64,000 nucleotides of DNA from Phytoactinopolyspora halophila (lineage in GTDB: Bacteria > Actinomycetota > Actinomycetes > Jiangellales > Jiangellaceae): NCBI RefSeq assembly GCF_003287285.1, contig NZ_QMIG01000004.1:124001-188000 (forward strand). The letters run 5' to 3'. This document shows, piece after piece, positions 18,671 to 20,233 of the stretch. The translations under genes were made by a program, and so were the position numbers. The stretch's first letter is position 1. Every line of letters begins with the position of its first letter. Below the pieces are notes generated by a model. That model saw nothing but the letters and a program-made list of their open reading frames with translations. It did no database searches and was not told where the DNA came from.

Positions 18671-18800
18671 CCATGCACGTTGAATACCCCTGGAGAGCGC
18701 CTAATTGAGAGGAAATCACGTGGGACCACCGTGCACGGCGCGTGGGATCAGCGTGCACGGCACGTGGAGTCGGCGGGCGTGGGACCAGCGTGCACGGCAC
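18671..18800 (+). repeat. Structured repeat cassette, copy 1
   Basis: The box CCATGCACGTTGAAT (18671-18685) is followed, 45 bp from its start, by TCACGTGG and then 22-bp iterons at 18720, 18742 and 18779, each with GTGCAC at offset 12; a 15-bp decayed unit fills 18764-18778. It lies about 140 bp past the 3' end of the DUF559-type gene. Copy 2 has identical internal distances. Confidence 0.8.
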
Positions 18801-18939
18801 GGGCTCGGCACGGGGGCGTATCCCCCGGGGGTCGCCCTGGCCCGAAGCGGATCCACACCGGCTGCCGCTACCCTGCCTGGCCACTCCACACCGTTCCCCT
18901 GTCAGCCGGTCCACGCCGCTCCCCTGTGGATTCATGGTG

Positions 18940-19923
18940 TCAGCCCATGGGCGGCACCCCGTACATCCGCGCGGCGATTCTGGACTGGCGCACGATGCGA
19001 TCAAGTATCGAGCGCGGTTCATACATCGCCTCTGCTGGAGTCCAGCGCACCACGACGAAACCTGCCTCTTCGATACGCATCTGCCGCTTCTTCTCGTCGA
19101 GCAGTACCTGGCCGCTCGTCGCCCACGTGGGGTTCGTGTACTTCTGGAAGCCATCCACTTCCCCGACGAGCCGGTACCGGCGCCACAGGAAGTCAGCCCG
19201 GATACCGCCCCTTCCCTCACCAACCACCCACGCGTTGCACTCCGGCAACGGGAACGCAGCCGTGACGAAGGTGGCATAGGAGCAAGACTCCCCCGGAGAT
19301 TCTCGGGTGACCGAGGCATGGTGGGCGACGGAACGCGCGTCGTGGCTCTTGCCCCATCCCGCCATTCGGTCGCTGACCTTCGCCAGCTCACCCGGCTCGA
19401 TGACGCGGCCGTGAAGCCCCGCGTCCGCGATGACCAAGCCGGCACCGAAACCGTAATGACGTGCTACGTCCAAGGCCGTCCGAGCTGGTGAAGCGCTCAA
19501 CACGTCACGTACGACGACGAACTCGCCCTCCACGAGTGGCCCGGTAGCCCGCACACGTAAGCCCGGGTAGGACCGTTGTCCGCCGGGTCTCTGACCGGAA
19601 GAACCCGGCCCGCCGGCACGCCGCACGGTGGAGAGCTCCACGACATCCGGCTGGCCGCGTGGCACTGGCAGTTCGAGGAGGAGCGCTGCGGAATAGCCAC
19701 TCGCCCAACCACGCTTACCGATGGCAAGCCATGCAGCATATAGGTGGATGGCATGCCGGTCTGCGGGCGAGCTCGCACTCTTGTCCCAGACGTCGCGTTC
19801 ACAGTAGATGCCGCGCCGTAACCGGACGAAGCGCCCGGAACGGTGGGCCCACTCGATAGTGCGCCCCGTGACGCCCCGAGCGAGCAGATCCGCGACTTTG
19901 TAAACCCCGGGTATGCCGACCAT
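18940..19923 (-). CDS. AbiEi-like winged-helix plus DUF559 (Vsr-like) endonuclease-fold protein
   Basis: A 327-residue two-domain protein. Residues 1-60 (VYKVADLLARGVTGRTIEWA, then SGRFVRLRRGIYC) match the N-terminal winged helix of AbiEi-type antitoxins. Residues about 215-300 match DUF559, a Vsr-like PD-(D/E)xK nuclease fold: Asp in RADFLW, Glu-x-Asp in GEVDG, and Lys in DEKKRQMR, all retained. A DNA-binding and nicking or cleaving role is inferred; the cognate AbiEii toxin is absent. The ATG at 19923 begins the homology; no ribosome site is clear. Structured repeats flank the gene in direct orientation, and twin palindromes lie 145 bp upstream. Confidence 0.75.
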   Translation of the reverse strand: MVGIPGVYKVADLLARGVTGRTIEWAHRSGRFVRLRRGIYCERDVWDKSASSPADRHAIHLYAAWLAIGKRGWASGYSAALLLELPVPRGQPDVVELSTVRRAGGPGSSGQRPGGQRSYPGLRVRATGPLVEGEFVVVRDVLSASPARTALDVARHYGFGAGLVIADAGLHGRVIEPGELAKVSDRMAGWGKSHDARSVAHHASVTRESPGESCSYATFVTAAFPLPECNAWVVGEGRGGIRADFLWRRYRLVGEVDGFQKYTNPTWATSGQVLLDEKKRQMRIEEAGFVVVRWTPAEAMYEPRSILDRIVRQSRIAARMYGVPPMG

Positions 19924-20066
19924 GCCGGCAGAGCTTGCCGCATGATGCCGGAGACCGCATCTCGCTATCCACAGGCTCGGAACCCGGCATGGACGACTCT
20001 GCCCGTCACCGTGAGCCCACGTGCATACCGTCTCGCCGTCGATTTCGAGCCCCGTACTCGTTCCTC

Positions 20067-20096
20067 CATCGCGATGCTGTTCGTTCCATCGCGATG
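20067..20096. promoter_or_regulatory. Twin CATCGCGATG palindromes
   Basis: The perfect 10-bp palindrome CATCGCGATG occurs at 20067-20076 and 20087-20096, exactly 20 bp apart, within a 13-bp direct repeat. It is upstream of the DUF559-type gene, next to repeat cassette copy 2. Operator-like; the binding protein is unknown. Confidence 0.45.
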
Positions 20097-20233
20097 CCAT
20101 GCACGTTGAATGTCCGCGGGCAACCGCTTTCCCAGCCGAATTCACGTGGAATCAGCGTGCACGGGACGTGGACCCAGCGTGCACGGGACGTGGGCCCAGC
20201 GTGCACGGGACGTGGGCTCAACGTGCACGGAGT
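20097..20233 (+). repeat. Structured repeat cassette, copy 2
   Basis: The box CCATGCACGTTGAAT (20097-20111), TCACGTGG 45 bp from the box start, then four contiguous 22-bp iterons at 20146, 20168, 20190 and 20212. GTGCAC falls at 20157, 20179, 20201 and 20223, a perfect two-turn spacing. Same orientation as copy 1, 1426 bp away. Confidence 0.82.

Follow-up and report, generated by a model that had tools for sequence, protein, structure and literature searches.

Repeated elements with a nuclease-like protein are known from actinobacterial genomes as REP13E12/DUF222-HNH, whose repeats are larger than those described here and whose protein belongs to another family. In REP/RAYT systems, families of short palindromic extragenic repeats are accompanied by a usually single-copy gene that has copies of its own repeat, or terminal inverted repeats, on its flanks (REPtrons and TIRtrons; PMC3733652, PMC8266576). 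In the AbiE type IV toxin-antitoxin system, the promoter of the antitoxin AbiEi contains inverted repeats (TGTTGCTTTTA-N27-TAAAAGCAACA) to which AbiEi itself binds (PMC3985639). A Caulobacter DUF559 Vsr-like protein (VsrA) causes an SOS response in cells without a methyltransferase (PMC12907096).

The locus studied here lies in a 64,000-nucleotide stretch of the Phytoactinopolyspora halophila genome (the window). By analogy, it may work like REP/RAYT, with which it shares a gene set between copies of an extragenic palindrome that is dispersed in the genome, specificity between repeat and protein, several independent pairs per genome, and gain or loss between related genomes. It differs in its protein (an AbiEi winged helix with a DUF559-like nuclease instead of an HUH Y1 transposase) and in its cassette, which in the window clade spans 60-70 bp and has a fixed core and 22-bp iterons. 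With AbiE the locus shares the N-terminal AbiEi winged helix and a similar repeat geometry (arm-N27-arm there, arm-N28-arm here), whereas the C-terminal nuclease domain and the dispersed repeats are absent from AbiE; no AbiEii toxin gene adjoins the window gene, so this is not an AbiE toxin-antitoxin locus. With Vsr-like/DUF559 PD-(D/E)xK endonucleases it shares the C-terminal D...ExDG...R motif and differs by the AbiEi fusion, by having no methyltransferase seen beside the gene, and by K-Y after ExDG, where H is usual in the DUF559 consensus. With a probability of roughly 0.6, we read the window as holding one REPtron-like unit (cassette - promoter - AbiEi-DUF559 gene - cassette) that encodes a protein with an AbiEi-type winged helix and a PD-(D/E)xK-like nuclease.

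The gene and its two cassettes

The features of the unit are as follows.

18669..18740, + strand: cassette copy 1 (left arm 18674-18690; degenerate 28-bp core 18691-18718; right arm 18719-18735)
18718..18801, + strand: iterons of copy 1 (starts 18718, 18740 and 18777; steps of 22 and 37)
18940..19923, - strand: AbiEi-DUF559-type gene, 327 aa (MVGIPGVYK...), with orthologs 53-66% identical in the family; the open frame reaches upstream to 20145
19141..19290, - strand: putative nuclease core of the DUF559-like C-terminal domain (E212, D244, E255-x-D257-G258, K261, with Y262 just past)
19801..19896, - strand: AbiEi_4 winged-helix segment, residues 10-41 (Pfam PF13338, 26.1 bits, above the cutoff of 25)
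20095..20166, + strand: cassette copy 2, on the 5' side of the gene (left arm 20100-20116; core 20117-20144, CGGGCAACCGCTTTCCCAGCCGAATTCA; right arm 20145-20161)
20144..20234, + strand: four iterons of copy 2 (starts 20144, 20166, 20188 and 20210; exact 22-bp period)

Homology favoured the ATG at 19923 as the start codon, which gives 327 aa down to the stop at 18940 as opposed to the 401 aa of the full open frame. An earlier note on this DNA had proposed an antitoxin-like winged helix joined to a Vsr-like nuclease. The first half is borne out by the PF13338 match, which recurs in 28 of 33 homologs; for the second half, the nuclease residues agree, but the DUF559 profile match stays under its cutoff (16.2 against 20.6 bits; E up to 0.1 for 14 of the 33 homologs). 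Among these 33 diverse homologs, G38, E212, D244, E255, G258, K261, Y262, R280 and R293 are invariant and D257 is kept in at least 90%; in a set of 108 homologs, conservation of the nuclease residues is 98-100%. We read the C-terminal domain, from its residues, as an apparently intact PD-(D/E)xK-like nuclease with an E-D-E-K core. In Pfam, AbiEi_4 and, weakly, DUF559 were the only matches of the window protein. Its best PDB sequence match was weak (3hrl, E 0.033), and its single-sequence structure model had a pLDDT of 32.

The third-position GC content (GC3) of the gene is 0.74, compared with 0.87 for FtsK and 0.82 for the ABC ATPase; its neighbours are an ABC exporter ATPase with an unassigned membrane ORF, a glyoxalase-family gene and FtsK. 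The earlier note had inferred a solitary selfish or defence unit. The defence part found no support: the gene has no AbiEii partner, searches for plasmid and phage matches to the protein returned none, and PADLOC assigned it AbiEi antitoxin models only. A defence or toxin-antitoxin role was rejected on the absence of the toxin partner and of phage and plasmid homologs. The gene is indeed solitary, but its cassette is dispersed in about 31 copies.

The layout reported for the cassettes was largely reproduced. The 15-bp box CCATGCACGTTGAAT is exact at 18671-18685 and at 20097-20111, and the window has no other match when up to 2 mismatches are allowed; TCACGTGG begins precisely 45 bp after each box (18716 and 20142); and the two copies lie 1426 bp apart in the same orientation. 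The 22-bp period of the iterons holds in both copies, apart from a single 37-bp step in copy 1. Read in reverse complement, the box is a degenerate iteron (ATTCAACGTGCATGG vs AATCAGCGTGCACGG), which makes the cassette an inverted repeat, laid out as TGCACGNTGANNCCACG - 28 bp - CGTGGNNTCAGCGTGCA and followed by extra right-half copies every 22 bp. The boundaries of copy 1 were taken from a gapless alignment of own-genome copies and a model match at G000:C49:142670-142739. The interval between the arms, described earlier as a spacer of free sequence, proved to be constrained: a gapless alignment of 26 copies from the own genome shows a constant core of 28 bp in which AAGCGCTTTCC keeps a fixed offset, and in this family TCGAT is often present in the core, closer to the right arm. 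The spacer had seemed free because only two copies were compared, one of which (copy 1) is degenerate; copy 2 fits the core.

Degenerate CCAGCTCACCCCGGCCGAC-type repeats with irregular steps occupy 18405-18567, immediately upstream of copy 1, and short CGGAGTCGGGGCC-type repeats lie directly past the copy 2 iterons (20259-20345). The GGCAAGCGCTTTCC core resembles a LacI-family operator, and a match upstream of a LacI-like gene in Arthrobacter cupressi (L070:3030-3063) is probably a coincidence. The AAGCGCTTTCC core as a solo LacI-type operator was set aside: the L070 match came from a mis-spaced pattern that has zero matches even in the own genome, and it is not evidence.

The Y1/RAYT transposase family PF01797 was found in 0 of 22 genomes of the family, with control genomes positive, and neither GTAG nor CGTC occurs at the cassette ends (72-bp consensus, window family). 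The cassette-gene unit is not a RAYT system, since the HUH Y1 protein is absent and the GTAG foot unseen, and a RAYT mobiliser was rejected on the absence of PF01797 from the family.

Dispersed copies and bracketed homologs

Pattern searches of the own genome (G000; 5.04 Mb in 77 contigs) recovered further cassettes in which the 47-bp register between half-sites is unchanged. The 26 copies align without gaps over 72 bp at a mean column identity of 79%, and the 72-bp cassette model matches about 31 distinct places, nearly all at E below 1e-8, which excludes chance. Predicted genes (from a simple codon-usage gene finder) contain none of 25 copies, which are set between convergent (9), tandem (7) or divergent (5) genes or at an edge (4). 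The earlier note had counted widespread occurrence of box and iterons, unlinked to DUF559 genes, against its proposal; most copies do lie at a distance from the gene, which is also the case in REP/RAYT, but two of them have a single cognate gene between them. A second pair of window-type cassettes, alike in orientation, brackets a RibD/DHFR-like gene (G000:C12:91092-92474; L020, L021); a paralog of that gene lies just beyond the pair, and a type I-E-like CRISPR array appears to begin right beside it.

Complementary arms and a convergent setting at 9 of the 21 classified sites are what would be expected if selection had kept the cassettes between convergent genes as RNA hairpins or bidirectional terminators, with the bracketing of a gene incidental. 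The arms, however, show no RNA covariation and score below shuffles (0.084 vs 0.102), and RNA-level structure of the cassette was rejected on this ground; complementarity without covariation instead points to recognition of duplex DNA by a dyad-symmetric protein, a further probable difference from REP/RAYT. Separate terminators would also not be alike in sequence on both flanks of one gene, an arrangement that control loci almost never have (see below), and we regard the hairpin or terminator explanation as very improbable. The same low standing is given to the idea that the protein structures the nucleoid from dispersed cassettes, as MatP does at matS: a rigid register at some 31 intergenic sites per genome would suit it, but copy number, arm sequence and presence shift fast between species, several unrelated families share one genome, and an invariant nuclease core would be unneeded.

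In a family-wide search, the close orthologs formed a clade (44-66% identity) that stood clearly apart from the general paralogs, at about 30-36%. Model matches in the sister genus have the layout and core of the window cassettes and different outer arms (CATGGCACGCTGA in G004, CATGGTGCGCTGA in G010), and in both genomes the ortholog of the window protein sits between two such cassettes. All near-full-length orthologs of more than 50% identity, from four genera, are bracketed; the copies are direct in G000, G007, G012, G004, G018, G011, G005 and G009 and inverted in G010. The 22-bp iteron step also occurs with other arm sequences (G010, G005, G018). Three clade members at 43-45% identity are unbracketed by the test described below, yet have a palindrome on one flank. 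A C-terminal gene fragment in G014 (G014:C12:619579-620373, L113) retains its bracketing, and about 12 solo cassettes persist in that genome; two close homologs (L112 in G019, L148 in G020) seem to be split into two overlapping reading-frame pieces, like decayed genes.

Bracketing was tested by aligning the 600 bp upstream of each gene to the 600 bp downstream, with a score of at least 50 taken as bracketed; mechanically called ORFs in the same loci served as controls, and the proportions are estimates. In the own family (22 genomes), 32 of 80 unique homolog loci were bracketed, against 0 of 167 control ORFs (Fisher 1.3e-18). Outside the family, bracketing was found for 39 of the 58 homologs tested, out of a sample of 60 drawn mainly from the top of a class-wide list and not at random, against 1 of 42 controls (Fisher 3.3e-12). 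Full-length homologs were bracketed in 63 of 100 cases, and 67 of 138 homologs were unbracketed by this test. When flanks were swapped between loci, 5 of 600 combinations scored as bracketed, at least some of them orthologous pairs. Of 217 genomes sampled from the class, 130 contain AbiEi-DUF559 homologs. Bracketing recurs across the class, far above controls.

The bracketed units comprise 35 in direct and 36 in inverted orientation, and 45 of 67 bracketing cassettes are palindromic in themselves. Median distances are 152 bp from the end of the 5' copy to where the homologous region starts, and 11 bp from the stop codon to the beginning of the 3' copy.

Co-divergence and presence/absence between congeners

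Across 65 units, protein identity and cassette similarity were correlated (Mantel r 0.56), a value reached in 0 of 999 permutations (maximum 0.11). Paralogs of the same genome, even those 60-69% identical, have unrelated cassettes; species relatedness adds to the Mantel correlation but does not account for this within-genome contrast. Dispersal was examined within the own family with a query of ten concatenated bracketing cassettes: in the genome that owns them, most have several to many solo copies and some have few. The cassette of the own C25 paralog is listed at about 27 places in the own genome, and that of G014 was found, among the listed matches, only in G014. G006 has 7 matches of G018/G005-type cassettes and no close ortholog; these are perhaps relics.

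The pairing of protein and repeats that the earlier note had drawn from REP/RAYT is upheld by bracketed orthologs with differing arms, class-wide bracketing and the co-divergence of cassette and protein. The association is strong; binding is inferred and mobilisation hypothetical. Some other transposase or recombinase could instead move the repeats, with AbiEi-DUF559 genes as frequent cargo. Other genes are bracketed now and then (RibD-like, M14 peptidase), and the protein has no identified strand-transfer domain; but cargo status leaves unexplained why the repeat tracks the protein sequence, why the pairing recurs over many families of the class and why same-genome paralogs have unrelated repeats, and a RAYT-type transposase is absent from the 22 family genomes. 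We consider such hitchhiking improbable.

Units and solo copies are present in some congeners and absent from others; these are presence/absence comparisons between species, with gain and loss unpolarised. At one locus (C), G015 has a unit between convergent genes where G018, G016 and G009 have a short spacer alone. At another (A), the G018 unit stands at a place held by another small gene in G017 and G021, and a third (B) is similar. Solo copies are likewise polymorphic (G018 near 687 kb vs G017; G011:C88 vs G018). A hot spot is formed by an intergenic gap whose sequence differs in each of four congeneric genomes (L317, L339, L340, L342); at least two of the four sequences belong to the repeat families studied. 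No target-site duplication recurred consistently at the ends that were inspected by eye.

A second (C25-type) repeat family of the own genome occurs as single ends, 94-bp palindromes, end-spacer-end forms and one gene-bearing unit. Near-perfect palindromes of about 90-94 bp (GAATGATCATGTTTGGTACGTTTTCTCGGGC...; L349-L351, L354-L357, L360) consist of two inverted ends and are REPIN-like. Inverted end pairs 216-393 bp apart with no evident gene inside (L344-L347) are MITE-like, and one inverted pair brackets an M14-peptidase-like gene, 1.67 kb in total (L348; G000:C39:41956-43630).

These observations bear on the alternative that the protein is only an AbiEi-like autorepressor, its flanking cassettes being operators (or operator and terminator), the dispersed copies a regulon or insulators, and the nuclease domain doing something else, for example cutting foreign DNA. 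AbiEi itself autorepresses from N27-spaced inverted repeats in its promoter (PMC3985639), and cassettes are placed upstream of the gene, at about 152 bp, as well as in intergenic gaps. Operators alone, however, do not fit a second copy about 11 bp (median) past the stop codon, nor solo copies that come and go between congeners, often between convergent genes where a promoter is unneeded; the end-spacer-end and palindromic derivatives also resemble element biology. We judge this alternative unlikely.

Proposed mechanism and meaning

For the REPtron-like unit, we propose that the N-terminal winged helix, paired, binds the inverted half-sites and that further protomers load on the 22-bp iterons. 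This operator-like recognition is proposed because the AbiEi antitoxin binds arm-N27-arm repeats, close to the arm-N28-arm of the cassette, and we hold it to be quite likely. The 5' cassette, about 150 bp upstream of the gene, would also serve autoregulation, which is probable by analogy with AbiEi, given that AbiEi binds repeats in its own promoter and that the 5' cassette is so placed. The nuclease would then cleave or nick the cassette, or a cruciform extruded from it, and repair or recombination would copy the cassette to intergenic sites, often between convergent genes. No strand-transfer chemistry is known for PD-(D/E)xK nucleases, and the insertion step would therefore depend on host repair or a further enzyme. 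We rate the spread of cassettes through nuclease cleavage with repair or recombination at about even odds. By such a route a single-copy gene, mostly vertically kept, would maintain a population of non-coding repeats, and gene and flanking cassettes would diverge jointly into new specificities, leaving the paralogs of one genome with unrelated repeats.

In an extension of this proposal to the whole class, every AbiEi-PD-(D/E)xK protein would recognise a palindromic extragenic repeat of its own and propagate it through duplex cleavage followed by repair. The system would have evolved separately from HUH/RAYT, and a genome would contain several orthogonal pairs. We put this forward tentatively, at slightly short of even odds. 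Points that count against our best explanation include the lack of a consistent target-site duplication, the 67 unbracketed homologs among 138, the bracketed RibD-like (C12:91-92 kb) and M14 peptidase (C39:42-43.6 kb) genes, and the G006 cassettes without a close ortholog.

In the open-access literature, which our search covered, we found no description that links DUF559/AbiEi to repeats; the system looks like an unreported counterpart of REP/RAYT, built on an unrelated enzyme. AbiEi-DUF559 homologs would otherwise be labelled stray antitoxins or proteins of unknown function, and a repeat family of its own gives each gene a testable role. The dispersed repeats of actinobacteria without RAYT gain a candidate maintainer. 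For CGTC-REPs, reported without a dedicated transposase (PMC3733652), non-HUH partners of a similar type could be looked for. The many natural protein-site pairs with diverging specificity would open the rules of recognition to direct test. The system would be an independent, non-HUH answer to the REP/RAYT problem. If duplex cleavage by the PD-(D/E)xK domain drives it, it would be of a kind separate from the known pairs of repeat and nuclease.
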